Shown in pieces: positions 13,660 through 62,317 of a stretch of DNA of 64,000 nt. Origin of the DNA: Actinostola sp. cb2023. Taxonomy: Eukaryota; Cnidaria; Anthozoa; Actiniaria; Actinostolidae. The translations under genes and the position numbers were made by a program. Location: the NCBI GenBank assembly GCA_033675265.1, contig JAUJYZ010001432.1:1-64000 (forward strand), given 5' to 3'. How positions within the stretch are numbered: the stretch's first letter is position 1; every line of letters begins with the position of its first letter. The notes beneath the pieces are model-generated. The model saw nothing but the letters and a program-made list of their open reading frames with translations, had not been told where the DNA came from and did not search any database.

Positions 13660-14692
13660 TCATTACAATCTCGGGCAAGGACACGTCACCGAACCGCCGG
13701 GCACAGGCTTCCCACCCTCTTTATCTGTGTTGGGCTTCCTGTTTCTTATTTGATCGGCGTTGGAAAAAATCTAGTCGCATCCAGCATACATTTTTACCCA
13801 CAACTAGTCAATTTCTCGCTCTCTCATTGGTCGATCAACCGTGGTCTATCAGAGTACATACCACGGTAGGACGTTCATCAATCGATCGTATGATGCAAAT
13901 TTTTTTAATCTTGTCAAACGAAAAAACATGTTTTCAGCTACAATATTTTTACAGTGAGTAAGAGTATATACATACCGAGCTGACTATCGTACAAATCACA
14001 TCCACAGTTCATAGCATTAGCAAAAACAAATTTTCCATCAGTTGCAGCGCTTCGATCTCCACAGTTTGTTCTTTCATTCAAGTAAAAACTAGATCTATCG
14101 TTTCGATGCTATTCACGGGAAAAAAAGTTGATTTGTTGACTTTTTGACACTGATGGTATAAATCCATGACTTGAGAAAATCCACAGACCATGAATACTCC
14201 GCTGAAGTGTGCTGTTTACTAACGTTATTTCATATTTTTTCAAGCGACCTCGTGCTTTTCTCCATTGACTGCATTTTCCAGATTTTAGAGTATTTTTCAG
14301 CTTTGTTGACTGTCAAAAAGGCATCTTCAGATTTCACACAATGACCAGGCACAAGGTGAAGCTTTCCCCACTGATAATTAATTCTCTAAGAGTTTCTTTC
14401 AGACTTGAAAACAAAATCTTTCAGATTTTTGAACTGATTTGGGCTGATCCCCGAGACAAGGCTGTTTGCCGATAAAATTGAAAAAACTGATTTGACAAGC
14501 TTGCAAGTAGCATTCAAATGGTTGCTTGTCAAAATCTAACCAATCAAAACGGCAAGATGTTTGTTTTACAAATTCCATCAACCAATGAAAAAGCGAGAAA
14601 ATTATATACCATGATTGCGCGATCTGCAATATGTTTTTGAGCAAAAGTTCGTAGGTAACTTGCGCGATTTATTTTGTTTTTTGTGGTAAAAA

Positions 14693-14876
14693 ACAAATAA
14701 CCGAATAGTTTGTCGTGGTATGTCCTCTGATAGACCACGGTTTGCGCCATCTCGTCGTCATAATTGTTCAGTGGAATCACTCGGTACGCCTCGTGATTCC
14801 ACAGCAATTTTGACGACTCGATGACGCAAACCGTGGTCTATCAGAGGACATACCACGACAAACTATCGGTTATTTG
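14693..14876. repeat. long hairpin in element X copy 1
   Basis: Arms of about 55 bases (acaaataaccg ... gtcgtggtatgtcctctg ... gtttgcg and its reverse complement) flank a short loop. A related half-arm (accgtggtctatcagag) occurs at about 13848. The same hairpin is at 44025-44209 in copy 2. It resembles a MITE fixed inside element X. Confidence 0.7.
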
Positions 14877-15317
14877 TTAAATAGTCAATGACGCTATAAG
14901 CCAATCCTGTGCACCAAAACGAACACGTTATGTCGTCTCTATAATGTGATGCATCTAAAAGTCGGGGGCGGTTTTGAATGTCTCAGGCGGGAGTACGTGC
15001 AGTGCTTTTCATACGTGTTGATCCATGTACAGTCAAAGGACATATATAGCGCGGGAAAACATGCAATGCAATTTCAACACGGCCGCCACGTTCAGTCGAG
15101 TCGAAAAATTGATGAATGGTACCGTCATAAATATCACGCGTAACGGATACTGAACAAAGCTACTACGAAATTCAAGATGATTTGGAGTCAGTTTTTGTAT
15201 GGCGTCCAATCTCCGCCAAAATTCGATCTTTGCATTTGACATTGTACTTTTAGTATTCCGCTTAACTGTGGAATTGTAGATTCAAGTTTTCATTTTGTTC
15301 ACTCTTTTTTCCAATTC

Positions 15318-15816
15318 AACATTGTAGTTTAACGTATTGAACATTGTAGTTTAACGTATTGAACATTGTAGTTTAACGTATTGAACATTGTAGTTTAACG
15401 TATTGAACATTGTAGTTTAACGTATTGAACATTGTAGTTTAACGTATTGAACATTTTAGTTTAACGTATTGAACATTGTAGTTTAACGTATTGAACATTG
15501 TAGTTTAACGTATTGAACATTGTAGTTTAACGTATTGAACATTGTAGTTTAACGTATTGAACATTGTAGTTTAACGTATTGAACATTGTAGTTTAACGTA
15601 TTCAACATTGTAGTTTAACGTATTGAACATTGTAGTTTAACGTATTGAACATTGTAGTTTAACGTATTGAACATTGTAGTTTTAACGTATTGAACATTGT
15701 AGTTTAACGTATTGAACATTGTAGTTTAACGTATTCAACATTTGTAGTTTAACGTATTGAACATTGTAGTTTAACGTATTGAACATTGTAGTTTAACGTA
15801 TTGACATTGTAGTTTA
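15318..15816 (+). repeat. 22-bp tandem satellite, forward array
   Basis: About 22-23 head-to-tail copies of a 22-bp unit containing 'aacattgtagtttaacg' followed by TATTG. Rare variants exist (ttcaac, an extra T). There are no unique spacers between copies. Confidence 0.95.
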
Positions 15817-16109
15817 ATAAATGGACATTCGATGTTGATATTGTACATTTCAACATGCAACTTGCATGTGTTCGATATCCAACCCGCAAAGCAGTCAAAC
15901 GCTTTGAACGTGGGCTCAGTGAACTATCAAAATGCCGCCCTAGGGGGGACTAACAAAGTGATACTACTCTACCATAGACAGTCGTGTTTTGTAGTCTCTA
16001 ACAAAATGGCGGAACTCGATGTTATCCAAGTAAGTCAAAGTATTCCTAACATATTAAAAACGTATAGATTGAACTCAATGAATCCTTTATGAAATTCCTT
16101 CGTGTCAAC

Positions 16110-16764
16110 CAGGGGCGTAGCGTGCATATACGCACGTACGCACGTGCGTACAATTTAAATCCTTAAAATATAAATATTATAAGAAGCACAAAAATATTAA
16201 AAAAATAATAATCTAAGACCAAATCTTAACAGCTGACTCAGTGTAAACTTCCTGGAAACTACTCTCAGAAGGCAGGAAATGCTATTTCAGAGACCATGTA
16301 TTTCAAAAAATTTCGGCGGGGAGCATGCCCCGTTAAATTCCCTATCAGCTCTCGCGTTCGCCGCTCGTCAAAGTTATCTGCAGTGACGTAGTCGTCTCTC
16401 GACCTGTGAAAATCCCGGAGAAAACATGTAGCAGCCTCAGTGAACAGTCTCTCAAACTACAAATAAATAGCAAAAAAACCGGCTTCGCCTATCGGGTTGT
16501 TATATCGCTAATAGACCTCGGTAACAGTATATAAGCTTTATATAAATCCTTTACATAAATCCCAAAAAAAACTGAGTGATAGATGCATTTTACTATGTAT
16601 TTATGTAGCGAGAAAGTCCGCTGGAAAACAAAGAAAATGGTATTTCCAAGACTCTAGATTTCTAAATTTCCAGGGGGGGCATGCCCCCTCACCCCCTAGA
16701 AACTCACGCCTTCGGCGCTCGTTGCTCTGTGCGTACATTGGAAAAAAAGCACGCTACGCCCCTG
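16110..16764 (-). mobile_element. hAT-like non-autonomous element, 655 bp
   Basis: The ends are CAGGGGCGTAGCGTGC and its exact reverse complement, flanked on both sides by TCAAC (16105-16109 and 16765-16769), a 5-bp target duplication. The matching arm of the palindrome lacks the insert, giving an empty-site comparison within the same element. A second family member lies at 58119-58821 in the opposite orientation. Ends starting CAGGG are typical of hAT elements. A 5-bp duplication is shorter than the usual 8 bp, so the subgroup is uncertain. No transposase is encoded. Confidence 0.85.
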
Positions 16765-17548
16765 TCAACGGACATATTTTGCACGATTTAGCATCTTATT
16801 TTAAATCCTGGAATAGGAAATATAGCGCGTATAAATACAAATCGCTCTAATACAAGAAGCTTTAAAATTATAATACCGGCTACACCCGGCGGCTACACCG
16901 TTCATGAACTACCATTTGCAAGCAACCGTTTGGCGTGACATTTTTTGTCGGTTTTTACAAGGCAGCTAAAGAGATCTAAAGACATAAAATATTTGTGGCT
17001 AAAACTCTAAATTTCACACGCCAAACGTCGCCGCCTATTAATAAATTAGCTAACTATAGACATTATAAACTTGTAAAAACCGACAAAAAATGTCACGCTA
17101 AACGGTTGCTTGCAAATGGTAGTTCATGAACGGTGTAGCCGCCGGGTGTAGCCGGTATTATAATTTTAAAGCTTCTTGTATTAGAGCGTATTTATACGCG
17201 GTATTTGTCCTATTCCAGGATTAAAATAAGATGCTAAATCGTGCAAAATATGTCCGTTGACACGAAGGAATTTCATAAAGGATTCATTGAGTTCAATCGA
17301 TACGTTTTTAATATGTTAGGAATACTTTGACTTACTTGGATAACTTCGAGTTCCGCCATTTTGTTAGAGACTACAAAACACGACTGTCTATGGTAGAGTA
17401 GTATCACTTTGTTTAGTCCCCCCTAGGGCGGCATTTTGATAGTTCACTGAGCCCACGTTCACAGCGTTTGACTGCTTTGCGGTTGGATATCAAACACATG
17501 CAAGTTGCATGTTGAAATGTACAATATCAACATCGAATGTCCATTTAT

Positions 17549-18004
17549 TAAACTACAATGTTCAATACGTTAAACTACAATGTTCAATACGTTAAACTAC
17601 AGTGTTCAATACGTTAAACTACAATGTTCAATACGTTAAACTACAATGTTCAATACGTTAAACTACAATGTTCAATACGTTAAACTACAATGTTCAATAC
17701 GTTAAACTAGAATGTTCAATACGTTAAACTAGAATGTTCAATACGTTAAACTACAATGTTCAATACGTTAAACTACAATGTTCAATACGTTAAACTACAA
17801 TGTTCAATACGTTAAACTACAATGTTCAATACGTTAAACTACAATGTTCAATACGTTAAACTACAATGTTCAATACGTTAAACTACAATGTTCAATACGT
17901 TAAACTACAATGTTCAATACGTTAAACTACAATGTTCAATACGTTAAACTACAATGTTCAATACGTTAAAAACTACAATGTTCAATACGTTAAACTACAA
18001 TGTT
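17549..18004 (-). repeat. 22-bp tandem satellite, reverse array
   Basis: About 20-21 copies of the same 22-bp unit as at 15318-15816 but on the opposite strand, forming the other arm of the palindrome. A few units carry a G in place of C (aaactagaatg). Confidence 0.95.
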
Positions 18005-18122
18005 GAATTGGAAAAAAGAGTGAACAAAATGAAAACTTGAATCTACAATTCCACAGATAAGCGGAATACTAAAAGTACAATGTCAAATGCAAAGATCGAA
18101 TTGTGGCGGAGATTGGACGCCA

Positions 18123-18201
18123 TATTTTTGAGCCGTTGATCCTTCATTGTTTATATTATTATTATAGACAATGAAGGATTACTGAACCGACTCAAAAAAT
18201 A
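18123..18201. repeat. small hairpin insertion
   Basis: Arms with 'gatccttcattgt' / 'acaatgaaggat' and 'tttttgagccg' / 'cgactcaaaaa' around an AT loop. It is present in the right arm of the element X palindrome and absent from the left arm, so it is likely a MITE-like insertion older than the copy 1 / copy 2 split (also at about 46912-46990). Confidence 0.65.
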
Positions 18202-18619
18202 CTCCACTGAATCATCTGGAATTTCGTATCAAGACAATACTCTAAGGTAGCATTTATTTCAGTATTTTCAAAACTGAAAAATCCACTTTTAATTTTAGCC
18301 GACCAAATCAGTCAAATCAGCTGGAGTTTTGCCGTGATCATGTGATCTTGTTCAAAATGGTAGTACATTTCGGTGAAACACGGTTGAGACGAAGTCGAAG
18401 TTGGATCGTTCAGAGCATGAAACGAGCAGAAAATATGCCGTTAGTTTTGATTTTTTGATAAAGGTAAGAGTTTGGGAATGTCCCATCATCGTCCTGAGCT
18501 GTGGAGTTTTTTGGAGGAATTGAGGGATTTTGGGGGTAATTAAAAAATGGAGTGGTTGCCGTTGGAGCTAGCGGGCGATCGTAGTTTCCTGCGTGCCTTG
18601 TCACTGTATACCCGGTGTA

Positions 18620-20455
18620 TATCACCCATTCCACGATAAACGAGGCCAATTCGTTTTTGGGGTGTCTTTGAGTTCATGACCGAATATTTTTCATGGAATT
18701 CGCTATTTTCTTTCTTGAATTTGAAGTTCTTATGTAAATCTTTCAATTCAGTCTAAAAAAGGCATTAAGTAAAAGAGTTATCATAGTTTTAAAAATGTTG
18801 CTCCAAACAACGAGTTTGTGGCACTTTTTTAATGTCCACAGTCGATAGCGCAAGCTAAGCGTTGTAAATAGCGTAAATCAACCACAGATAACCATCCTTT
18901 CGTTATATGCTAGACATCAAAAGGCCTTGGCCCCATTATAGCAAGGAAACAACTGCTGATATATTTTAAAATATATCAAAGTATATCAGCAGTTGTTTCC
19001 TCGCTATATTGGAGCTGCTATACTAAATATACTGACATACAATGCATTTCAGTCTTGGAATGCACTATTCGGTATTCAGTATTCACAAGACAACGTTTTT
19101 TGAAATAGCTGTATAACTAAATCTGGATGTCTGGCATAATGGCGCAGAACTGGTCTTGTTGAGCGCGAAAAGTAACATCCGTTACCCAGTGTTACCATAA
19201 CCTCCGTTACTCGACTTTCTGAAATTTTAATTTCTGATGAAAGTTTGTCGGTTTTGAATTAGTAATGAAAGTTCAAAGCCTAGAATGATATTTTAAGTAC
19301 AAACAGTGTCCACTAAGTTGCTCGAGATCGAGGTTGGAGCTAAGCTGTACCGCCGGTCATATTTTTTTCTCTTGTGGTAGAAGCCAGAGAGTATTGTCAA
19401 TCGACGAAACCTCTGTAGAGATGATTAATTGTAAATCTCTACCAGGCATTTTAGGATGGGTCCGTTGTATCCAGAGAGGCTTAAAACTCTGATTTTTGAT
19501 TTATTAAACTGGAAAATCAAGAAAATCAGCAGATGAACGAAACAGTAACCTCCGTTACCAAATGTGTTCTCCGATCTATCTTAGTGCAAATTGCTGTAGT
19601 GATATATATTACTCTCGACAACTTATCAGCTGCATTGTCGGCAGCTAAACATTTATAAACCAAGAACATTGAGTGTCTGGACAAATTGTTATTATTAGCT
19701 TATAATGATACCTAAATGGATGAGCAGCAAGCACGCTAATGCGCATGCCAATGATTGCATATTTTATAGCAGTCAATAGTATTTAATAATTCATCAGAGA
19801 TTGTGAAGAACATAATGATAAATGTTTTATCATGATAATATTGATGGTTATATGATTTTACTAAACATTACCTGCCTCGTAGTAACCTCCGTTACTTGTT
19901 GTAGTTACCAAAATAATATATAATATTTTCCCAACGTTTATTCACAGCATAATTCTGATTATTTCTGACTCAAACTATAATCGTTCAAGGTGAACTCATC
20001 GACAAATATAAAATATATCGTCCCATATAGACGTATTCTACGGTAGAAGTATCCTATACAATATTTATTTTGATATATATATTTGCATATTCTTCATTTA
20101 AAAAAACTGAAAATAGAGAAAAGTATCTTTATTCAGGTATATTTTTGTGTGTTTAGTGTTTTAGCGATATATTTTGCACCACCCGCGCGAGCATATATGA
20201 GTCGTCCAGGCTGTTTTTCATAAAATACAGGAATTTTTTAAGGTTTTATTTCTATTTTATATAATTTTCACGATTGGGAAACAACAGCCTATCGATTATA
20301 CGCTCGCAATTTTTTGCATTAAAATATTTTTGTTACTTTTTTCCCCCCAGATACTCAAATTTGAATAATTTGACTTTTGGAGCACCTATTTTTCTTGAGA
20401 AAATATTCCATAATTTTATACCCTATTGGCCTCGTTTATCGTGGAATGGGTGATA
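18620..20455. repeat. segment bounded by perfect 30-bp inverted repeats
   Basis: The sequence from 18620 (tatcacccattccacg...) to 18649 is the exact reverse complement of 20426-20455 (...cgtggaatgggtgata). The same pair is at 47413-47442 and 49234-49263. The right repeat is the point where similarity between the two element X copies ends, so it is a real terminus. The left one may be the start of a nested element or an internal subterminal repeat. Confidence 0.75.
18936..19009. repeat. internal hairpin of element X copy 1
   Basis: Inverted arms 'caaggaaacaactgctgata' and its near complement flank an AT-rich loop. Copy 2 carries it at about 47738-47806. Confidence 0.7.
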
Positions 20456-24239: not shown

Positions 24240-24252
24240 ATGGCGGACGAAG
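24240..24252 (+). CDS. putative first coding exon of a cellular gene
   Basis: AAAG ATG GCG GAC GAA G followed by the consensus donor GTGAGT would encode Met-Ala-Asp-Glu plus one base. The ATG lies just after a CpG-rich CCAAT-containing segment. No continuation exon was identified; the Polinton-like element begins 85 bases into the presumed intron. This is an inference from local signals only. Confidence 0.3.
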
Positions 24253-24331
24253 GTGAGTACGAAATAGCTTTATTTTGTACGTTTTATAACCTCTAAGCTC
24301 CTAATATCTTAGCAGTACAGAGTTTGTGTTG

Positions 24332-24337
24332 CTTTGC
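24332..24337 (+). repeat. target site duplication CTTTGC, left
   Basis: CTTTGC directly precedes the left ITR and recurs directly after the right ITR (29817-29822). Six bases is the known target duplication length of Polintons. Confidence 0.85.
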
Positions 24338-25385
24338 AGTAGATATGAAATGGCGGTTCTGGAACAGGTATGTACCGGTATTATCGGCATTCACACACAA
24401 TACCGGTATAAGCGCAGCTTGTGGTCCCTGGTACAATAATGCACCACCGGAGCAAATCCCCTAGGAGGTGACGTCATGCCGGTGCGGAGCCCGGTGCCAT
24501 TGGAGCCTATTGTTCTAAAATATACCTTTTGTTTACAATCTATTTTTAGTCACCAACTCGAGGATATAATATTATTTTTATTTATTTATAATTATTATTA
24601 TTTTTCTTGTTCTGAAGAAACCTATTGTTTTTGGCTGACTCCATCTTTTGTGTCGTAATTTCCGGTATGGACAGCCTATTGTTTTCTAACAGATCTTTTG
24701 TTTACACACGTGTCTATTTTAGAACGACCGTTCGGTTTTTGGCTGACGTTTTTATTTTCCCAGTTTTTCATTTTTCCGTGAATCAGCAATTCCTGTACCG
24801 CGATGCACCAGAGCGTGTACATCTACAAATAGATAGTTTGAATCATCAATGGTAGAGTTTACAGGACTGAAGCTACCGACTATTAAAAACTATTTTCTAG
24901 ATCACGAAAAAGCTAGAGTTGCTGTCGTTCCCATAACAACACGATACCCTACTTTATCAGTTCTCAACACTTATAGTCTATTGTTTCACAACACTTATAG
25001 TCTATTGTTTCACAACACTCAAATTAATCTGACAAATTTCAAACTCTGCTTTATGACTATGATAAAACAAATAAAATAGCTTTAAAATGCGCTATAAAAG
25101 TTAATAAATTGTTATTATATTATTGTGTGGAAATTCAATTTGTAAAATATAAGACCAAACACGTTCTCAATTCATCAGTTTGTATGACTATCAGTCAAGC
25201 ACCTCTCATTTTATTGATTAAAATTTGAATAGCGCTGATGCAAGACAACATAAACACTGGGTTTTAAAACAATTTTATTTAATGTTTTACATGGTTTTAC
25301 ATTGTTCTTAATACTTCTGCCAGTTAGGTATTGATTTAATCACGGCTCTTAATCGTTCTGAACGTCGAGGAGGTGTCACTACATC
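24338..25385 (+). repeat. left ITR of Polinton-like element
   Basis: Reverse complement of 28768-29816 with only about one mismatch per several hundred bases and small A/T-run differences. It contains a TACCGGTATT / AATACCGGTA pair near the tip, and a short direct repeat of 'acacttatagtctattgt' near 24969. The inner 78 bases include the end of the coding frame at 25308-25846. Confidence 0.9.
25274..25279 (-). promoter_or_regulatory. poly(A) signal AATAAA (minus block)
   Basis: AATAAA on the minus strand about 30 bases after the stop codon at 25308. It lies in the ITR and so is duplicated near 28870 on the plus strand. Confidence 0.5.
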
Positions 25386-25846
25386 GTCGTATTTATGGGC
25401 ATCCCGATAAGGTATCCACTTGATGGGTTTTTCTTTACTTGATGGGGGAGTGGGTGGAAATATGGGTGAACCAGATGGAGTGTTTGGTGTGTTGAACAAG
25501 GAGGTTGGTTGTCCCATTTCTGAATGGGTTCTTATTGGAGTAGAAGGAACCTCAACTGATGTCGATGGTCTCGAAGTAGATGGTATTCTAATTTTAGAGG
25601 TGAGGCGTTGTAACATGGAAGGTGGTTTAGATGTAACAAAACCACTATCACGAGTTAGACTTGTTGAAGGAACATTCTCTGGAGTTGTAAAAGCCGGCAG
25701 ATGACTTTCATCAGCCAACGGTGGTAGGACTGCTTCTTGCCTGGGTCTGACCACCACACTGTTCGGAAGTTGTTGTTCGAGGTGGAGGTAGCGATTAAAC
25801 AATGAAGTGTATTCTTTCACTTTCACCTCTGGAGGAACTGGGGGTC
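25308..25846 (-). CDS. Pro/Ser/Thr-rich tail frame, possible -1 frameshift extension
   Basis: An open frame of about 180 codons lies directly 3' of, and overlapping, the ATPase gene. It has no ATG before well inside the frame; an in-frame GTG at 25824-25826 would be needed for independent initiation. Upstream it stays open through the overlap with the ATPase 3' end. A TTTAAAA heptamer there (25847-25853, minus strand) is in the correct register for -1 slippage into this frame. The product is low complexity, rich in Pro, Ser and Thr (PPTPPSSKEKP, SRPSTSVEVPSTP) with a basic C-terminus (TPPRRSERLRAVIKS). No known domain was recognised. Its last 26 codons lie in the ITR. Splicing onto another exon is the main alternative to frameshifting. 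Confidence 0.6.
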
Positions 25847-26710
25847 TTTTAAAATGTGGTCCATCTGCTCTTCTAGATTCTGCATGGCTTTTAAGACGGG
25901 TGACTGTAAGTACCCTTGACGTTGAAAAAAGTTACCGATGGTCTTCATCGCATCCAATTGACCCCCAGTCTGTGGGGGATCGTTGGGAAGAACATTAGTA
26001 CGCAGTCGACACTCCTCTGGAGTGTTGGGTTTGAGATCAACAAAGAGGTAGCCGTAAGGCCTCTGGACGGCAGCTTCATACTTATGAAGAAACTGATCGG
26101 TCTTGCCAGGGTACATCTGTTTTCCCAACGTTGTTATTTGTAGTTTATCTCTTGGGTTTTTAAACAGAACTAGGTACGCGGCATTCAGACTCAACGTGCG
26201 CATGATTTTGCCTTGAAAGTAGACATTCTGACAGAGGAAAATGACACTGAGGTTTCGGTGATGAGATCCTTTGGTGAATAAATTCATAATTCTTTTGTCG
26301 TTGGAGGTCTCGGCCATTTGGTCGTCAATGACCATCAGATTGTTGACTTTGGGATCAAAATACCAATCCTCGTCCAGGTCGTGAGGGATGCCTTTGACAA
26401 ACTCGATCTCTGGTAGAGTCTGCTGCATTTGCTCATAGGCCGGTTGCCATTGTGAATAGCTCCATACAATACGTTGAGGGGGAGGTTGAATGACTCTACT
26501 TGCGTGTTGAAGTAAGTTCTGAACCCAGACCGTTTTTCCAGACCCAGTCATTCCCGCCACGATAGCCGTGAAGGGGTGGAGTAACTGAAAGGTTGTACAA
26601 GATGAAGCCATCTCTGATTTTGGAGATTTCTGGAATTTGTGTTTGTTATTAATGTGTCTTTTAAGATTATCATTTCTCGAAAATTCTTTACCACACTCTG
26701 GACAATTCAT
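25823..26710 (-). CDS. C2H2 zinc finger fused to FtsK/HerA-type packaging ATPase
   Basis: 295 residues. Residues 3-24 form one C2H2 zinc finger (C3, C6, H19, H24, spacing C-x2-C-x12-H-x4-H). After a short linker comes a P-loop ATPase. Walker A is GMTGSGKT at 53-60. Walker B is LMVIDD at 125-130 with two acidic residues. SVIFLCQN at 155-162 resembles the sensor strand of A32/FtsK-HerA packaging ATPases. Such ATPases pump DNA into capsids in Polintons, adintoviruses and relatives. Here no capsid gene accompanies it. The N-terminal zinc finger is unusual and may aid DNA recognition. Met34, just before the ATPase domain, is an alternative start. The stop overlaps the next frame. The upstream region carries TATA and CCAAT motifs on the minus strand. 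Confidence 0.8.
   Translation of the reverse strand: MNCPECGKEFSRNDNLKRHINNKHKFQKSPKSEMASSCTTFQLLHPFTAIVAGMTGSGKTVWVQNLLQHASRVIQPPPQRIVWSYSQWQPAYEQMQQTLPEIEFVKGIPHDLDEDWYFDPKVNNLMVIDDQMAETSNDKRIMNLFTKGSHHRNLSVIFLCQNVYFQGKIMRTLSLNAAYLVLFKNPRDKLQITTLGKQMYPGKTDQFLHKYEAAVQRPYGYLFVDLKPNTPEECRLRTNVLPNDPPQTGGQLDAMKTIGNFFQRQGYLQSPVLKAMQNLEEQMDHILKDPQFLQR
25847..25853 (-). promoter_or_regulatory. candidate -1 ribosomal slippery heptamer TTTAAAA
   Basis: The ATPase frame reads ATT TTA AAA GAC, so T TTA AAA fits X XXY YYZ in the zero frame, at Lys288, seven codons before the stop. Slippage by one base back enters the downstream frame, which is open from here to 25308. I did not identify a convincing downstream pseudoknot by eye. 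Confidence 0.5.
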
Positions 26711-26762
26711 GTTTACTGCACAGAAGCAATCGGTAGAATGAGTAGAAACAATATATACACTC

Positions 26763-26803
26763 TTTTTTATAGTTTATATTTTCAAAATCGCAATTCTCAT
26801 TGG
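26763..26803 (-). promoter_or_regulatory. TATA and CCAAT boxes for ATPase gene
   Basis: On the minus strand a CCAAT (plus 26799-26803) is followed by ACTATAAAAAAG (plus about 26762-26773), about 55-60 bases before the ATPase ATG. Confidence 0.5.
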
Positions 26804-26810
26804 TAAATAT

Positions 26811-27145
26811 CCTCCTCCTCCTCATTTACTCCTCCTCCTCATTCACTCCTCCTCCTCCTCATTCACTCCTCCTAATTCACTCCTCTTCCTCATTCACTCC
26901 TCCTCCTCCTCATTCACTCCTCCTCCTCATTCACTCCTCCTCCTCCTCATTCACTCCTCCTCCTACTCATTCACTCCTCCTCCTCCTCATTCACTCCTCC
27001 TCATTAACTCCTCCTCCTCCTCCTCACTCCTCCTCCTCCTCCTCCTCCTCCTCCTCCTCCTCCTCCTCCTCCTCCTCCTCCTCCTCCTCCTCCTCCTCCT
27101 CCTCCTCCTCCTCCTCCTCCTCCTCCTCCTCCTCCTCCTCCACAT
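26811..27145 (+). repeat. CTC/TCC microsatellite and CTCCTCATTCA minisatellite
   Basis: Irregular repeats of CTCCTCCTC-ATTCA (26811-27030) pass into a pure TCC run (about 27025-27141). It separates the divergent coding blocks of the Polinton-like element. The long open frames over it (poly-Ser, poly-Gly) are artefacts of the repeat. Confidence 0.95.
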
Positions 27146-27261
27146 TCACTCTTCCTCCTCCTCATTCCCTTCTTTCCCCTCGCTAAACTATCAGATAACT
27201 CAATAAATAGCATAGTGTCTCTAAATAAGGTTCATTTGAATAAGTCTTCCATAGAGACAAC

Positions 27262-27588
27262 ATGAGTCAACTACTATGTCAAAATTTTGGTTATTTGCAT
27301 CATTTAGCACATTGTCCTCCCCACCAAAGAGATTTATTACTGGCCTCCGCTAGTCCAGAACAGGTTCACGTCATTTGTGAAGTGTGTTTGAATTTGTGTA
27401 TGGGCACTCTTCCGGTTACGGTTGGACAAAAAGAAAGACTTAAACCACATGTGGATGTCATACGAGAATTAGCGGACTCCTCAATTCCTTTCAAAACCAA
27501 GAAACGAACTCTAGCTCAACACGGTGGGGGGTTTGTGTCCGATGTCATGTCACCGCTGATGTCAGCTTTGAGCCTGTTTTTACTATAA
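27262..27588 (+). CDS. PX-like small protein with Gly-rich hydrophobic C-terminus
   Basis: 108 residues. The N-terminal half has scattered Cys and His. The middle is basic (KERLKPHVDVIRELAD, FKTKKRTLAQ). The C-terminus is HGGGFVSDVMSPLMSALSLF, a Gly-rich start followed by a short hydrophobic helix. This layout resembles the PX / adenovirus core-protein-like small genes of Polintons and adintoviruses, whose products are basic and end in a similar QxGGF hydrophobic tail. The similarity is recalled from family patterns, not aligned. The next gene starts 57 bases downstream on the same strand. Confidence 0.6.
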   Translation: MSQLLCQNFGYLHHLAHCPPHQRDLLLASASPEQVHVICEVCLNLCMGTLPVTVGQKERLKPHVDVIRELADSSIPFKTKKRTLAQHGGGFVSDVMSPLMSALSLFLL

Positions 27589-27593
27589 ATAAC
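27584..27593 (+). promoter_or_regulatory. TATA-like box overlapping PX-like stop codon
   Basis: ACTATAAATAAC overlaps the TAA stop of the PX-like gene about 55 bases before the next ATG, a plausible TATA box for the 266-residue gene. Confidence 0.35.
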
Positions 27594-27644
27594 GTCATCT
27601 TGAAAGAAAACCTTCATTTTACCTTGACTACCTGAGGAAGCAAC

Positions 27645-28445
27645 ATGAAGAGATCAAGAGTCGATTCTACTAGCTCTGAAGAAAGTTCAGTTTATTCTGA
27701 AAAGAGTTCCTCGGAATTGGACATTTTTGACGATGACGAGATCGAAGAAGTTATGCAGGATCTCTCCCAGAGTACTATCCCGAAAGATAAGGCTCTAGCT
27801 TTTCTTCACAGTCTTGCTGCTTCAAAAAGTATTTTATACTGGAATTCTCATGGTGAGATGACTTATCATCAACGAAGAATTCCCCTAACCAATATAGTAG
27901 AACTTATTGAATATGCCATGTTACCTTACAACCTCGATGTCAGAACCCCGAGAGGACTCAAAACATTCACGAACGGGTTATCGGAAGTCGGAATTGACAA
28001 AACACTTATACGAAACAAGCGCTTGCTGGCAGATCTGGTTGCTAGGCAACCCGAAGAAGAGAATACTGACGATGACAGCGAGAGTGGAGAAGAAGAAACG
28101 GATGAATCTGAGGCAGAAAGCACATCAACAGAATCTGACAGTGGCAAGTCGGAAAGTTCAGAATCGGATGATGAACCTAGGGAGTGTCACGTGTGTCGTG
28201 ACTTCAAACCGTTCTACACAATACCTATAGTACAATGTCCTAGATGTCTGTGGCGAGAAGGCTACTACTGCCGTCAGAATCAACATGTCGAGTGCGATGT
28301 GTGCGCGCATGTGTTCCCAGTGGATGTCAAAACCACAAAAACAACCTTTTGCCGTTGTAGAGACTGCGATGCTGTCCATGAATTGTCGTTAAAATTCAAT
28401 AAACTGAAACTCATTGACGGGGAACAAGAATCTGAAGAAGATTAA
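27645..28445 (+). CDS. acidic protein with C-terminal Cys-rich zinc-binding domain
   Basis: 266 residues. Residues 1-45 are Ser- and acid-rich. Residues 46-130 form a compact region (LYWNSHGEMTYHQRRIPLTN ... LIRNKRLLADLV) of a type I associate with Polinton-linked proteins. Residues 137-178 are a run of Asp/Glu/Ser. Residues 181-241 have ten Cys (181, 184, 198, 201, 209, 217, 220, 236, 238, 241), mostly in CxxC pairs, suggesting two or more zinc sites. No enzyme motif is visible. The acidic stretch plus zinc domain suggests a nucleic-acid or protein-binding role. The function is unknown. Confidence 0.65.
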   Translation: MKRSRVDSTSSEESSVYSEKSSSELDIFDDDEIEEVMQDLSQSTIPKDKALAFLHSLAASKSILYWNSHGEMTYHQRRIPLTNIVELIEYAMLPYNLDVRTPRGLKTFTNGLSEVGIDKTLIRNKRLLADLVARQPEEENTDDDSESGEEETDESEAESTSTESDSGKSESSESDDEPRECHVCRDFKPFYTIPIVQCPRCLWREGYYCRQNQHVECDVCAHVFPVDVKTTKTTFCRCRDCDAVHELSLKFNKLKLIDGEQESEED

Positions 28446-28469
28446 TCCTGTTGAATTTTGCAAACCCCA

Positions 28470-28475
28470 AATAAA
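28470..28475 (+). promoter_or_regulatory. poly(A) signal AATAAA (plus block)
   Basis: AATAAA about 25 bases after the stop of the 266-residue gene. Confidence 0.5.
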
Positions 28476-28767
28476 ACTTTCTAAATCAATTTGAGTGGTG
28501 TGATTTTATAATTATTTAAAGAAATGTTGTGATTTTATAATTGCCTAGTTGTAAATAAATCACATTTTTAAAAAGACTCACGTGTTTGACTCTGGTGTCA
28601 GTTAATTGTCAGTTAGTTATTATTGTTCTGATACACAGACAAATTTACATATGGTCACCTGTTGATACAACAATAGATCACTTATCTAGGGTACCTTTTC
28701 ATTGTTTAAATTAATCTTTGTACAACTTTAAAGAAGGATATGATCGACATAAAAACATTAGGTTGAA

Positions 28768-29816
28768 GATGTAGTGACACCTCCTCGACGTTCAGAACGA
28801 TTAAGAGCCGTGATTAAATCAATACCTAACTGGCAGAAGTATTAAGAACAATGTAAAACCATGTAAAACATTAAATAAAATTGTTTTAAAACCCAGTGTT
28901 TATGTTGTCTTGCATCAGCGCTATTCAAATTTTAATCAATAAAATGAGAGGTGCTTGACTGATAGTCATACAAACTGATGAATTGAGAACGTGTTTGGTC
29001 TTATATTTTACAAATTGAATTTCCACACAATAATATAATAACAATTTATTAACTTTTATAGCGCATTTTAAAGCTATTTTATTTGTTTTATCATAGTCAT
29101 AAAGCAGAGTTTGAAATTTGTCAGATTAATTTGAGTGTTGTGAAACAATAAACTATAAGTGTTGTGAAACAATAGACTATAAGTGTTGAGAACTGATAAA
29201 GTAGGGTATCGTGTTGTTATGGGAACGACAGCAACTCTAGCTTTTTCGTGATCTAGAAAATAGTTTTTAATAGTCGGTAGCTTCAGTCCTGTAAACTCTA
29301 CCATTGATGATTCAAACTATCTATTTGTAGATGTACACGCTCTGGTGCATCGCGGTACAGGAATTGCTGATTCACGGAAAAATGAAAAACTGGGAAAATA
29401 AAAACGTCAGCCAAAAACCGAACGGTCGTTCTAAAATAGACACGTGTGTAAACAAAAGATCTGTTAGAAAACAATAGGCTGTCCATACCGGAAATTACGA
29501 CACAAAAGATGGAGTCAGCCAAAAACAATAGGTTTCTTCAGAACAAGAAAAATAATAATAATTATAAATAAATAAAAAATAATATTATATCCTCGAGTTG
29601 GTGACTAAAAATAGATTGTAAACAAAAGGTATATTTTAGAACAATAGGCTCCAATGGCACCGGGCTCCGCACCGGCATGACGTCACCTCCTAGGGGATTT
29701 GCTCCGGTGGTGCATTATTGTACCAGGGACCACAAGCTGCGCTTATACCGGTATTGTGTGTGAATGCCGATAATACCGGTACATACCTGTTCCAGAACCG
29801 CCATTTCATATCTACT
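28768..29816 (-). repeat. right ITR of Polinton-like element
   Basis: Inverted copy of 24338-25385. At its inner edge (28769-28845) it reproduces on the plus strand the last 25-26 codons and stop of the minus-block tail frame without an upstream gene, then the same poly(A) region. Confidence 0.9.
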
Positions 29817-29822
29817 CTTTGC
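29817..29822 (+). repeat. target site duplication CTTTGC, right
   Basis: Second copy of the 6-bp target site directly after the right ITR. Confidence 0.85.
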
Positions 29823-31340: not shown

Positions 31341-31558
31341 CATGCATAGTAATGAGGGATATTTAGTCTAAATGTCCCTCATGAATATAATCATGAGGGA
31401 CATTTAGTCTAAATTTCCCTCATGATTGTATTCATGAGGGAGATTTAGTCTAAATTTCCCTCATGATTGTATTCATGAGGGAGATTTAGTCTAAATTTCC
31501 CTCATGATTGTATTCATGAGGGAGATTTAGTCTAAATTTCCCTCATTACTATGCATGA
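31341..31558. repeat. 41-bp tandem array of palindromes
   Basis: Five units with a 41-bp period (starts near 31351, 31392, 31433, 31474, 31515), each a near-perfect palindrome around TTTAGTCTAAA with TCATGAGGGA / TCCCTCATGA shoulders. The whole array is bracketed by CATGCATAGTAATGAGGGA and its complement, so it is also palindromic at the larger scale. Confidence 0.85.
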
Positions 31559-42531: not shown

Positions 42532-44024
42532 ACTATCGTGCCTTTAAGGGTCGCGAATTCCTCGCAAGTATCAATAAAACTTCATCAACTACAAGTGCTA
42601 CGGGATAACTAGACCTACCGTCATATTGTGGCTCTTTGCCTTGTATCTTTAGATTCCGTGACTTAGAGCAGATTTCGTATGACTGGAAAAACACGCGACA
42701 CAACCACAGGCTTCCCATCCTCGACGTTTGTGTATTTGTATTTCGGGTTTCCTGTGGCGACTTCTTGCTTTGCTTCGAAGGAAATCATAGAAGAGTTTGA
42801 AAATATGTTCTGAGAGCATCGTTTTTTATATCACTAAAAAATAAATGTTTGCAAATAATAGTTAGATACTTTATCCAGCTTTCTGAATGGTTTTGGGGGC
42901 ATTTTGGGCTGTCTAAAGGTGGTTTTGAGAGCGACTGATTTGGACTTTGTATTAGAAAATTACACATGTAATATAACACGGCACGGCACGGCACGGCACG
43001 GCACGGATTCATTACAAATCTCGGGCAAGGACACGTCACCGAACCGCCGGGCACAGGCTTCCCACCCTCTATATCTGTGTTGGGCTTCCTGTTTCTTATT
43101 TCATCGGCCGTTGGAAAAATCTAGTCGCATCCAACCTTAAATACATTTTTTACCACAACTAGTCAATTTCTCGCTCTCTCATTGGTCGATCAACCGTGGT
43201 CTATCAGAGTACATACCACGGTAGGACGTCATCAATCGATCGTATGATGCAAAATTTTTAATTTTGTCAAACGAAAAACATGTTTTCAGCTACAATTTTT
43301 TACAGTGAGTAAGAGTATATACATACCGAGCTGACTATCGTACAAATCACATCCACAGTTCATAGCATTAGCAAAACAAATTTTCCATCAGTTGCAGCGC
43401 TTCGATCTCCACAGTTTGTTCTTTCATTCAAGTAAAAACTAGATCTATCGTTTCGATGCTATTCACGGGGAAAAAAGTTGATTTGTTGACTTTTTGACAC
43501 TCTGATGGTATAAATCCATGACTTGAGAAAATCCACAGACCATGAATACTCCGCTGAAGTGCTGTTTTCTAACGTTATTTCATATTTTTCAAGCGACCTC
43601 GTGCTTTTCTCCATTGACTGCATTTTCCAGATTTAAGAGTATTTTTCAGCTTTGTTGACTGTCAAAAAGGCATCTTTCAGATTTCACACAAGGTGAAGCT
43701 TTCCCCACTGATAATTAAATCTCTAAGAGTTTCTTTCAGACTTGAAAACAAAATCTTTCAGATTTTGAACTGATTTGGGCTGATCCCCGAGACAAGGCTG
43801 TTTGCCGATAAAATTGAAAACTGATTTGACAAGCTTGCAAGTAGCATTCAAATGGTTGCTTGTCAAAATCTAACCAATCAAAACGGCAAGATGTTTGTTT
43901 ACAAATTCCATCAACCAATGAAAAAGCGAGAAAATTATATACCATGATTGCGCGATCTGCAATATGTTTTTGAGCAAAAGTTCGTAGGTAACTTGCGCGA
44001 TTTATTTTGTTTTTGTGGTAAAAA

Positions 44025-44209
44025 ACAAATAACCGAATAGTTTGTCGTGGTATGTCCTCTGATAGACCACGGTTTGCGCCATCTCGTCGTCATAATTGTT
44101 CAGTGGAATCACTCGGTACGCCTCGTGATTCCACAGCAATTTTGACGACTCGATGACGCAAACCGTGGTCTATCAGAGGACATACCACGACAAACTAGCG
44201 GTTATTTGT
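44025..44209. repeat. long hairpin in element X copy 2
   Basis: Equivalent of 14693-14876 with the same arms and loop. Confidence 0.7.
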
Positions 44210-44688
44210 TAAATAGTCAATGACGCTATAAGCCAATCCTGTGCACCAAAACGAACACGTTATGTAGTCTCTATAATGTGATGCATCTAAAAGTCGGGGG
44301 CGGTTTTGAATGTCTCAGGCGGGAGTGCAGTGCTTTTCATACGTGTTGATCCATGTACAGTCACAGGACATATATATTCGTCATTTTCGAAAATCGCGCA
44401 GTTAGCACGTTCGCCCAGTTAGCGCGGGAAAACATGCAATATTTCAACACGGCCGCCACGTTCACTGAGTCGAGAAAAATTGATGAATGGTACCGTCATA
44501 AATATCACGCGTAACGGATACTGAACAAAGCTACTACGAAATTCAAGATGATTTGGAGTCAGTTTTTGTATGGCGTCCAATCTCCGCCACAATTCGATCT
44601 TTGCATTTGACATTGTACTTTTAGTATTCCGCTTATCTGTGGAATTGGAGATTCAAGTTTTCATTTTGTTCACTCTTTTTTCCAATTC

Positions 44689-45504
44689 AACATTGTAGTT
44701 TAACGTATTGAACATTGTAGTTTAACGTATTGAACATTGTAGTTTAACGTATTGAACATTGTAGTTTAACGTATTGAACATTGTAGTTTAACGTATTGAA
44801 CATTGTAGTTTAACGTATTGAACATTGTAGTTTAACGTATTGAACATTGTAGTTTAACGTAGTTTAACGTATTGAACATTGTAGTTTAACGTATTGAACA
44901 TTGTAGTTTAACGTATTGAACATTGTAGTTTAACGTATTGAACATTGTAGTTTAACGTATTGAACATTGTAGTTTAACGTATTGAACATTTGTAGTTTAA
45001 CGTATTGAACATTGTAGTTTAACGTATTGAACATTGTAGTTTAACGTATTGAACATTGTAGTTTAACGTATTGAACATTGTAGTTTAACGTATTGAACAT
45101 TGTAGTTTAACGTATTGAACATTGTAGTTTAACGTATTGAACATTGTAGTTTAACGTATTGAACATTGTAGTTTAACGTATTGAACATTGTAGTTTAACG
45201 TATTGAACATTGTAGTTTAACGTATTGAACATTGTAGTTTAACGTATTGAACATTGTAGTTTAACGTATTGAACATTGTAGTTTAACGTATTGAACATTG
45301 TAGTTTAACGTATTGAACATTGTAGTTAACGTATTGAACATTGTAGTTTAACGTATTGAACATTGTAGTTTAACGCATTGAACATTGTAGTTTAACGTAT
45401 TGAACATTGTAGTTTAACGTATTGAACATTGTAGTTTAACGTATTGAACATTGTAGTTTAACGTATTGAACATTGTAGTTTAACGTATTGAACATTGTAG
45501 TTTA
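44689..45504 (+). repeat. 22-bp tandem satellite, forward array (expanded)
   Basis: About 37 copies of the 22-bp unit versus about 23 in copy 1. One local duplication of 'gtagtttaac' is visible near 44855. Confidence 0.95.
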
Positions 45505-46313
45505 ATAAATGGACATTCGATGTTGATATTGTACATTTCAACATGCAACTTGCATGTGTTCGATATCCAACCGCAAAGCAGTCAAACGCTTTGAACGTGG
45601 GCTCAGTGAACTATCAAAATGCCGCCCTAGGGGGGACTAACAAAGTGATACTACTCTACCATAGACAGTCGTGTTTTGTAGTCTCTAACAAAATGGCGGA
45701 ACTCGATGTTTTGTCGGTTTTTACAAGGCAGCTAAAGAGATCTAAAGACATAAAATATTTGTGGCTAAAACTCTAAATTTCACACGCCAAACGTCGCCGC
45801 CTATTAATAAATTAGCTAACTATAGACATTATAAACTTGTAAAAACTGACAAAAAATGTCACGCTAAACGGTTGCTTGCAAATGGTAGTTCATGAACGGT
45901 GTAGCCGCCGGGTGTAGCCGGTATTATAATTTTAAAGCTTCTTGTATTAGAGCGTATTTATACGCGGTATTTGTCCTATTCCAGGATTAAAATAAGATAC
46001 TAAATCTTGCAAAATATGTCCGTTGACACGAAGGAATTTCATAAAGGATTCATTGAGTTCAATCGATACGTTTTTAATATGTTAGGAATACTTTGACTTA
46101 CTTGGATAACATCGAGTTCCGCCATTTTGTTAGAGACTACAAAACACGACTGTCTATGGTAGAGTAGTATCACTTTGTTAGTCCCCCCTAGGGCGGCATT
46201 TTGATAGTTCACTGAGCCCACGTTCACAGTGTTTGACTGGTTTTTGGTTGGATATCGAACACATGCAAGTTGCATGTTGAAATGTACAATATCAACATCG
46301 AATGTCCATTTAT

Positions 46314-46791
46314 TAAACTACAATGTTCCATACGTTAAACTACAATGTTCAATACGTTAAACTACAATGTTCAATACGTTAAACTACAATGTTCAATACG
46401 TTAAACTACAATGTTCAATACGTTAAACTAGAATGTTCAATACGTTAAACTACAATGTTCAATACGTTAAACTACAATGTTCAATACGTTAACTGCTACA
46501 ATGTTCAATACGTTAAACTACAATGTTCAATACGTTAAACTACAATGTTCAATACGTTAAACTACAATGTTCAATACGTTAAACTACAATGTTCAATACG
46601 TTAAACTACAATGTTCAATACGTTAAACTACAATGTTCAATACGTTAAACTACAATGTTCAATACGTTAAACTACAATGTTCAATACGTTAAACTACAAT
46701 GTTCAATACGTTAAACTACAATGTTCAATACGTTAAACTACAATGTTCAATACGTTAAACTACAATGTTCAATACGTTAAACTACAATGTT
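46314..46791 (-). repeat. 22-bp tandem satellite, reverse array
   Basis: About 22 copies on the opposite strand, forming the second palindrome arm of copy 2. Confidence 0.95.
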
Positions 46792-47412
46792 GAATTGGAA
46801 AAAAGAGTGAACAAAATGAAAACTTGAATCTACAATTCCACAGATAAGCGGAATACTAAAAGTACAATGTCAAATGCAAAGATCGAATTGTGGCGGAGAT
46901 TGGACGCCATATTTTTGAGCCGTTGATCCTTCATTGTTTATATTATTATTATAGACAATGAAGGATTACTGAACCGACTCAAAAAATACTCCACTGAATC
47001 ATCTGGAATTTCGTATCAAGACAATACTCTAAGGTAGCATTTATTTCAGTATTTTCAAAACTGAAAAATCCACTTTTAATTTTAGCCGACCAAATCAGTC
47101 AAATCAGCTGGAGTTTTGCCGTGATCATGTGATCTTGTTCAAAATGGTAGTACATTTCGGTGAAACACGGTTGAGACGAAGTCGAAGTTGGATCGTTCAG
47201 AGCATGAAACGAGCAGAAAATATGCCGTTAGTTTTGACTACAATTTTTTTGATAAAGGTAAGAGTTTGGGAATGTCCCATCATCGTCCTGAGCTGTGGAG
47301 TTTTTTGGAGGAATTGAGGGATTTTGGGGGTAATTAAAAATGGAGTGGTTGCCGTTGGAGCTAGCGGGCGATCGTAGTTTCCTGCGTGCCTTGTCACTGT
47401 ATACCCGGTGTA

Positions 47413-49263
47413 TATCACCCATTCCACGATAAACGAGGCCAATTCGTTTTTGGGGTGTCTTTGAGTTCCTGACCGAATATTTTTCATGGAATTCGCTATT
47501 TTCTTTCTTGAATTTGAAGTTCTTATGTAAATCTTTCAATTCAGTCTAAAAAAGGCATTAAGTAAAAGAGTTATCATAGTTTTAAAAATGTTGCTCCAAA
47601 CAACGAGTTTGTGGCACTTTTTTAATGTCCACAGTCGATAGCGCAAGCTAAGCGTTGTATGGCGTAAATCAACCACAGATAACCATCCTCTCGTTATCTG
47701 ATGCTAGACATCAAAAGGCCTTGGCCCCATTATAGCAAGGAAACAACTGCTGATATATTTAAAATATATCAAAGTATATCAGCAGTTGTTTCCTCGCTAT
47801 ATTGGAGCTGATATACTAAATATACTGACATACAATGCATTTCAGTCTTGGAATGCACTATTCGGTATTCAGTATTCACAAGACAACGTTTTTTGAAATA
47901 GCTGTATAACTAAATCTGGATGTCTGGCATAATGGCGCAGAACTGGTCTTGTTGAGCGAACTGAGTAACATCCGTTACCCAGTGTTACTATAACCTCCGT
48001 TACTCGACTTTCTGAAATTTTAATTTCTGATGAAAGTTTGCTCGGTTTTGAATTAGTAATGAAAGTTCAAGGCCTAGAATGATATTTTAAGTACAACTGA
48101 ACAGTGTCCACTAAGTTGCTCGAGATCGAGGTTGGAACTAAGCTGTATCCGCCGGCCATATTTTTTCTCTTGTGGTAGAAGCCAGAGAGTATTGTCAATC
48201 GACGAAAACTCTGTAGAGATGATTAATTGTAAATCTCTACCAGGCATTTTAGGATGGGTCCGTTGTATCCAGAGAGGCTTAAAACTCTGATTTTTGATTT
48301 ATTAAACTGGAAAATCAAGAAAATCAGCAGACGGAACGAAACAGTAACCTCCGTTACCAAATGTGTTCTCCGATCTATCTTAGTGCAAATTGCTGTAGTG
48401 ATATATATTACTCTCGACAACTTATCAGCTGCATTGTCGGCAGCTAAACATTTATAAACCAAGAACATTGAGTGTCTGGACAAATTGTTATTATTAGCTT
48501 ATAATGATACCTAAATGGATGAGCAGCAAGCACGCTAATGCTCATGCATGCCAATGATTGCATATTTTATAGCAGTCAATAGTATTTAATAAATCATCAG
48601 AGATCGTGAAGAACATAATGATAAATGTTTTATCATGATTATATTGATGGATATATGATTTTACTAAACATACCTGCCTCGTAGTAACCTCCATTACTTG
48701 TTGTAGTTACCAAAATAATATATAATATTTTCCCAACGTTTATTCACAGCATAATTCTGATTATTTCTGACTCAAACTATAATCGTTCAAGGTGAACTCA
48801 TCGACAAATATATCGTCCCATAGACGTATTCTACGGTAGAAGTATCCTATACAATATTTATTTTGACATATATTTTTGCATATTCTTCATTTAAAAAAAT
48901 TGAAAATAGAGAAAAGTATCTTTATTCAGGTATCTTTTTTTGTGTGTTTACTGTTTTAGCGATATGTTTTGCACCACCCGCGCGAGCAAATATGAGTCGT
49001 CCATTAGTCTGATTTTCATAAAATACAGGAATTTTTTAAGGTTTTATTTCTATTTTATATAATTTTCACGATTGGGAAACAACAGCCTATCGATTATACG
49101 CTCGCAATTTTTTGCATTAAAAGATTACATAATTTTTTTTTCAGATACTCAAATTTGAATAATTTGACTTTTGGAGCACCTAATTTTTATATAGAAAATA
49201 TTCCATGATATTTTTGTCAATTCTTATACCCTATTGGCCTCGTTTATCGTGGAATGGGTGATA
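47413..49263. repeat. segment bounded by perfect 30-bp inverted repeats
   Basis: Counterpart of 18620-20455; the repeats are at 47413-47442 and 49234-49263. Confidence 0.7.

Positions 49264-55200: not shown

Positions 55201-62317
<7,117 letters not shown>

Follow-up and report, generated by a model that had tools for sequence, protein, structure and literature searches.

A compact protein-coding element of Polinton type in Actinostola sp. cb2023 as a probable satellite of co-resident Polintons

We analysed the first 64,000 nucleotides (forward strand; hereafter the window) of contig JAUJYZ010001432.1 in the genome assembly of Actinostola sp. cb2023 (Cnidaria, Actiniaria; GCA_033675265.1). At 24338-29816 the window holds an element of 5479 bp that has long inverted terminal repeats (ITRs) and genes for a packaging-type ATPase, a small pX-like protein and an acidic Cys-rich (zinc-type) protein. 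Judged by its sequence and its relatives, it is one copy of a recently mobile, multi-copy, protein-coding family of miniature Polintons. We consider it probable that this family is a coding, non-autonomous satellite lineage that has its own packaging module and is mobilised, through shared tips, by full-size Polintons resident in the same genome; the compact elements look like hitchhikers on a virus, not broken leftovers. The initial annotation of the window had also proposed a coding Polinton satellite, not a simple deletion relic, and the related copies, the shared tips, the A32-type ATPase, the genuine target-site duplication and the ratios of nonsynonymous to synonymous divergence (dN/dS) below 1 that are described here bear it out.

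Ends, copies and tip-sharing full-size Polintons

The two ITRs of the window copy are 99.7% identical over 1052 columns, with two mismatches and one 1-base gap, and the element ends in AGTAGATATG on the left and CATATCTACT on the right, giving AG..CT termini. This agrees with the initial description of near-identical ITRs of about 1.05 kb, starting with AG, in an element of 5.48 kb. Five of the six positions of the tip, AGTAGA, fit the (AGT)2 end motif, which is that of vertebrate Mavericks, and the tip and the 1051-bp ITR accord with the (AGT)2 or (AG)3 tips and the terminal inverted repeats of 46-1447 bp in the vertebrate range. The exact duplication of CTTTGC that had been annotated was found on both sides, and exact 6-bp duplications flank 11 of the 12 tip-paired elements examined base by base (10 of 11, plus one by eye), the one exception being L019, in which the right tip is altered. 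That the duplication is a coincidence is countered further by an empty site: a 2-kb element (L010) is nested within another copy's ORF4, the frame that overlaps the ATPase gene, and its flanks, minus one duplicate, give an ungapped 120-bp alignment to the uninterrupted window element at 97.5% identity. This is direct empty-site proof that the duplication is genuine.

Related copies were found in number in the 424-Mb assembly, as the initial annotation had anticipated. The genome searches scored part of their candidates (40 of 125 in one search, 133 of 338 for the ATPase, 88 of 305 for the polymerase profile PF03175, 144 of 178 for the zinc-type protein and 136 of 462 for ATPase B, the ATPase of full-size elements), and the counts are lower bounds. 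The outer 242 bp of the ITR gave 53 matches, and the outermost 24 bp, with up to three mismatches, gave 114 tips (59 forward and 55 reverse), compared with none for a reversed-pattern control. We typed the 92 tips with at most two mismatches; eight listed tips with three mismatches were dropped and 14 of the 114 were unlisted. Pairing of the typed tips yielded 29 elements, 18 of which bear a window-type ATPase gene, a zinc-type gene or both. Sixteen of these measure 3.5-7.5 kb, and the remaining two, of 12 and 15 kb, perhaps hold insertions. Five other pairs enclose ATPase B (13.2, 15.1, 16.2, 16.3 and 34.1 kb) and six, of 0.56-5.5 kb, enclose no typed gene.

The ATPase search gave at least 137 matches, from which we typed 52 loci (at least 200 aa and at least 76% identity); four others of the same length and >50% identity, with 3 to 11 stops each, were left out (C78, C1507, C786 and C304). 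There is no stop in 36 of the 52, or in 36 of 56 when the omitted loci are counted, and 31 of the 52 have a frame of at least 450 aa. In 45 of the 52 loci a zinc-type gene lies within 12 kb of the ATPase, always divergent from it and a median of 1153 bp away; 74 of 149 zinc rows and 15 helper-type ATPase rows were typed. The order ORF4-ATPase / pX-zinc is repeated in five copies found by their ITRs (L012, L013, L016, L025 and L027), and three same-tip elements (L010, L018 and L020) have no match to any of the four window proteins.

Full-size Polintons with matching termini are represented by the five tip-paired elements of 13-34 kb with ATPase B. This protein does not differ among C449, C302, C527 and C1024, with other loci at least 92% alike. 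A listed tip was found no more than 20 kb from eight of the 15 typed B loci, and five of these eight lie between two tips. The tip variant of the window copy and a variant with two mismatches each occur on both full-size and compact elements; the compact elements have, in other words, cis-acting ends in common with a co-resident putative helper. A 10-kb stretch (L059) of such a helper at C527, with one listed tip, encodes a 583-aa protein in which family-B polymerase (PolB) motifs were read directly, an ATPase, a pX homologue and a 260-aa PZ-like protein, the last three as separate genes on one strand, and, on the opposite strand, a protease resembling Peptidase_C5 (E 9e-4, short of the profile's cut-off) and a 341-aa protein that may be a major capsid protein. 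This layout is that of vertebrate Mavericks, for which one account lines up the ATPase gene with a small and a PZ-type gene on one strand, opposite the capsid module (PMC8097293). Another Polinton family (L060) has a PolB (PF03175, 1664 aa) adjoining an rve-chromodomain integrase.

Matches to PF03175 were found on 42 contigs (75 polymerase matches), many of them in open frames >1000 aa, and other Polinton-type families look, from these frames, to have been recently active in this genome. At C206:4925-8998 and C307:6113-13569 several tips, all oriented alike, are crowded into a few kb, unlike ordinary insertions. An 11.2-kb element at C952:310127-321303 (L014, L015) has the same tips, a 6-bp duplication and an 894-aa frame; this frame has no Pfam match, and the element, which has none of the four window genes, is perhaps another kind of passenger.

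Gene content, constraint and age

The ATPase scores 28.3 bits against the Pfam profile Pox_A32 (cut-off 22.8) and is 40% identical to ATPase B, which puts it, as initially annotated, with the packaging ATPases of the Polinton/A32 (FtsK/HerA) type and not outside them. The longest stop-to-stop frames on the two sides of the element (316 and 269 aa) exceed the maxima of 500 dinucleotide shuffles (215 and 197 aa) and are therefore more than chance. The earlier description of intact frames holds for the ATPase, the pX-like protein and the acidic zinc-type protein, but not for ORF4, which is continuous with the ATPase in many copies (~490 aa) and out of frame with it in the window copy and at C551; a shortened protein is thus expected from the window copy unless translation shifts frame. 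Similarly, the 108-aa frame that had been called PX-like is present and has a pX homologue in the helper, but it is not the PX of the Polinton literature, a name given there to the penton (PMC4028283); by position it corresponds to the small ORF between atp and pz that one account of Mavericks names PM (PMC8097293). Pfam gave no match at E 0.1 for ten frames, including ORF4, that are 70 aa or longer. A PDB sequence search returned zinc-finger chains for the ATPase, matching its finger, and nothing convincing for the zinc-type protein, the pX-like protein or the PolB-like protein of the helper, and a single-sequence fold of the ATPase was uninformative (mean pLDDT 36.1).

These genes are arranged differently from those of the helper. 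The window ATPase runs into a segment matching the N-terminal part of the L059 PZ-like protein (48% over 25 aa, E 7e-7), while pX, which aligns with its L059 homologue at 33% identity (E 2e-14), lies on the opposite strand from the ATPase, beside the zinc-type protein. Residues ~35-155 of the zinc-type protein have matches (27-28% identity, E 7e-8 to 1.1e-6) at eight loci, seven of which are just 3' of other Polinton ATPases on the same strand (positions compared by eye); its direct match to the L059 PZ-like protein is weak (E 0.03). On these alignments the compact element contains the ATPase-pX-PZ block, split and joined anew. Its gene order and fusion differ from those of the present helper, of which it is a reorganised relative and no simple deletion derivative. 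Two copies carry, between the zinc-type gene and the right end, a Fic/DOC-domain gene with an HPFxDGNGR core as cargo (L016:4474-5223 and L025:5854-6651; 94% identical to each other).

The absence of polymerase, integrase and capsid genes, which had been noted at the outset, is supported by the fact that seven proteins of the helper and of a third family (PolB, integrase, protease, a protein like the major capsid protein (MCP), and others) match nothing in the element or in L009-L028. No protein-primed PolB was detected with 14 Pfam frame queries or with tblastn searches using two PolB-type proteins, and none of the 52 typed ATPase loci has a PF03175 polymerase within 25 kb. No rve integrase was detected by the Pfam frame queries or the helper and third-family proteins, and no capsid or protease gene by Pfam or by the MCP-like and protease-like proteins of the helper, a search in which the minor capsid protein was not queried separately. 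A double jelly-roll capsid protein of the virophage kind likewise had no match, the query being the helper's MCP-like protein and not virophage capsid profiles. With its 5479 bp, and with 16 of the 18 gene-bearing paired copies at 3.5-7.5 kb, the family falls below the 12.7-24.6 kb that one survey gives for intact vertebrate Mavericks (PMC8097293).

We estimated pairwise dN/dS (Nei-Gojobori) in two samples. Among 32 loci chosen mostly by protein similarity, after gapped and stop-bearing loci were dropped, dN/dS was 0.103 for the ATPase (n=23), 0.145 for pX (n=24), 0.223 for ORF4 (n=17) and 0.287 for the zinc-type protein (n=14); owing to the way its loci were chosen, this sample leans to low dN. 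Nine sequences chosen by their ITRs, with columns near gaps masked, gave 0.168 for the ATPase (n=6), 0.157 for pX (n=7), 0.319 for the zinc-type protein (n=7) and 0.487 for ORF4 (n=9). The values for the ATPase (0.10-0.17) and pX (0.15-0.16) are well below 1, and by this measure both proteins are constrained, the zinc-type protein less so and ORF4 weakly or unclearly.

Within single copies the two ITRs are 99.3-99.9% alike (the window copy, L012, L013 and the outer 711 bp of L016), closer than the 79-97% found between the outer ITRs of different copies, so that several sublineages inserted recently. Older copies are present too, with ITR pairs at 96% in L017 and 85% in L019. The right ITR of the window copy is partly copied from the left end, based on the fact that its inner part has the 3' end of ORF4 with no upstream frame. 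The inner border of the ITR differs between copies (374 to 1173 bp), and copying of the left end onto the right seems to have happened repeatedly; it could occur during the replication of linear genomes from their ends.

Proposed cycle and other explanations

In the cycle that we propose, a co-resident full-size Polinton would supply a protein-primed polymerase and an integrase, which would recognise the shared tip of ~24-29 bp, replicate the compact element and insert it with a 6-bp duplication. Satellite DNA would enter helper capsids, and the satellite ATPase, together with pX and the PZ-derived proteins, would steer packaging toward satellite DNA. Since short tips are matched in more than one variant, recognition by shared proteins is suggested; these would most simply be the polymerase/terminal protein and integrase of the helper, and we infer that polymerase, integrase and capsid all come from tip-sharing full-size elements. 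An element in need of replication and integration alone could do without an ATPase, as the mini-elements do. The constraint on the ATPase and pX suggests that packaging of satellite DNA depends on both proteins, with the ATPase presumably giving the packaging preference. According to one account, Maverick particles have not been observed so far (PMC8097293). A satellite that keeps nearly only a packaging-type module, under purifying selection, would be an indirect sign that helper Polintons produce particles that it pays to exploit, and if this is true compact DNA of ~5.5 kb is expected inside helper particles.

Several observations weigh against a satellite lineage mobilised by these helpers. 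Of the 92 typed tips, 34 have no partner. In the compact family, stops occur in 16 of the 52 typed ATPase loci and 21 have no 450-aa frame, and the window copy itself has the break between ATPase and ORF4. Without masking, the ITR-chosen sequences give higher dN/dS for the ATPase (0.375), the zinc-type protein (0.379) and ORF4 (0.674), and 0.157 for pX. On the side of the helper, seven of the 15 typed B loci lie more than 20 kb from any listed tip, and the ITRs of helper and compact elements are unlike beyond the outer 24-30 bp. The PolB-like protein of L059 has no Pfam match, being called by its motifs only, and aligns weakly with a PF03175 polymerase (E 0.012); the 341-aa protein on the opposite strand is taken to be MCP-like from a motif. 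No integrase is among the genes read in the tip-sharing full-size family, the element ends lying outside the sequence read.

A large internal deletion of a full-size Polinton, leaving ITRs and a few dead genes that move passively in the manner of miniature inverted-repeat transposable elements (MITEs), would fit the gene-poor elements with the same tips (six of the 29 pairs, and L010, L018 and L020) and the stops in 16 ATPase loci. Such an origin is very unlikely: the gene order and fusion are unlike those of the helper, protein identity to the helper reaches only 33-40%, one and the same arrangement is found in 45 of 52 loci, and the ATPase and pX both have low dN/dS. We thus reject a simple deletion relic for the family, based on order, fusion, copy number and dN/dS. 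It seems hardly credible, too, that a single split viral genome is made up of a compact and a full-size segment, although the two kinds of element have the same tips, occur in the same genome and have both been recently mobile, since the full-size element already has ATPase, pX and PZ-like genes, and the compact one consequently adds nothing obviously missing save the zinc domain and occasional Fic cargo.

An antiviral module, kept because the host benefits when its ATPase, pX and PZ-like proteins hinder full-size Polintons, as has been proposed for virophages and polinton-like viruses, is unlikely, if somewhat easier to entertain. Diverged copies of helper packaging proteins could be dominant inhibitors, and polinton-like viruses may act as an antiviral defence of protists, as one source has it (PMC12220804), but the element's own spread explains the mobility with shared tips and the recent insertions of several sublineages. 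Interference and self-packaging are compatible with each other and not exclusive. As to the break between ATPase and ORF4 in the window copy, we give very little credence to a programmed frameshift in place of a mutation. Where the two frames overlap there is a slippery-type motif in the right phase, the frame that follows is long, and isoforms made by frameshift have been proposed for adintovirus pentons (PMC11071296). Against this, 31 of the 52 typed loci have a single frame of at least 450 aa, codon shuffling gives such a motif in the overlap at P = 0.15 and the downstream RNA fold is unremarkable (z -0.79).

The satellite that we favour has clear likenesses to known systems. With Polintons/Mavericks (Polintoviricetes) and adintoviruses it shares the 6-bp duplication, AGT-type tips, long ITRs and an A32/FtsK-HerA ATPase, and its pX and PZ-like proteins have homologues in a full-size element of this genome; it differs in its 5.5 kb, in that no PolB, integrase, protease or capsid gene was found, in the fusion of its ATPase to a PZ part and in having pX on the opposite strand. 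Virophages (Maveriviricetes) are, like it, small DNA elements with Polinton kin, and it is likewise proposed to depend on another virus. They encode their own capsid proteins, protease and ATPase, as one description states (PMC11071308), whereas no capsid gene was found in the compact element, whose proposed helper is a Polinton and not a giant virus. MITEs and other non-autonomous DNA transposons also have tips in common with autonomous elements and are presumably mobilised in trans, as the compact elements would be; they differ from the compact lineage, which has a conserved coding module under purifying selection. In gene content, then, the compact element is neither a virophage, no capsid gene having been found, nor a MITE, being coding and constrained. 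Phage packaging pirates such as P4-like satellites and phage-inducible chromosomal islands use the capsid of a helper and bring their own packaging factor. By analogy, the compact element would work most like such a packaging satellite, taking a helper capsid and bringing its own packaging factor, although the proteins are others, the host is eukaryotic and the genome is linear and of Polinton type.

More generally, we tentatively suggest, with somewhat less than even confidence, that animal-type Polintons have long-lived satellites without capsid genes that use a divergent packaging module of their own to parasitise helper virions, match or exchange the terminal motif of the helper and sometimes carry Fic-type cargo, as a eukaryotic counterpart of phage packaging pirates. 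No description of such compact Polinton satellites was found in a literature search that excluded Repbase and subscription papers, in which an unlisted description may exist. No relative was confirmed in IMG/VR (single-protein queries, degenerate patterns and a two-row alignment), and none was found in prokaryote contigs (one pattern) or phages (tblastn).

Features of the window copy and its surroundings

Features of the compact element, with positions in the window
Feature	Coordinates	Strand	Remarks
Left target-site duplication, CTTTGC	24332..24337	.	exact 6 bp
Left ITR	24338..25388	+	1051 bp; contains ORF4 3' end
Left tip	24338..24366	+	29 bp, 29/29 same as tip of full-size Polinton at C527
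ORF4	25308..25931	-	overlaps ATPase, runs into left ITR; matches N-part of helper PZ-like protein
Packaging-type ATPase (A32/FtsK-HerA kind)	25823..26710	-	295 aa; N-terminal C2H2 zinc finger
TCC-rich tandem array	26810..27163	.	separates two divergent gene pairs
pX-like protein	27262..27588	+	108 aa; 33% identical to helper's 109-aa homologue
Acidic Cys-rich (zinc-type) protein	27645..28445	+	266 aa; N-terminal half resembles PZ domain of other Polintons
Right ITR	28765..29816	-	1052 bp
Orphan ORF4 3' end within right ITR	28765..28845	+	final 81 bp of ORF4, no upstream frame
Right tip	29788..29816	-	left tip, inverted copy
Right target-site duplication, CTTTGC	29817..29822	.	exact 6 bp

The TCC-rich array is alike in L012 and L016, and there is no such richness in L013 and L027. 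We rejected the array as a deletion scar because the layout is common to copies with and without it.

Read by eye, 24241-24338, just upstream of the element, holds what may be a short first exon, ATGGCGGACGAAG, with GTGAGT after it, and the element may lie within the first intron of a host gene. Elsewhere in the window, a block of ~5 kb is present twice (14673-19748 and 44005-48547; 95-100% identity), and in each block arrays of a 22-bp unit flank a long palindromic element (15314-15817/17548-18008 and 44685-45505/46313-46795). A tandem array at 31347-31551 has a 41-bp palindromic unit with ATGAGGGA, and a hexanucleotide (GAAGGA) array of ~790 bp occupies 60337-61127.

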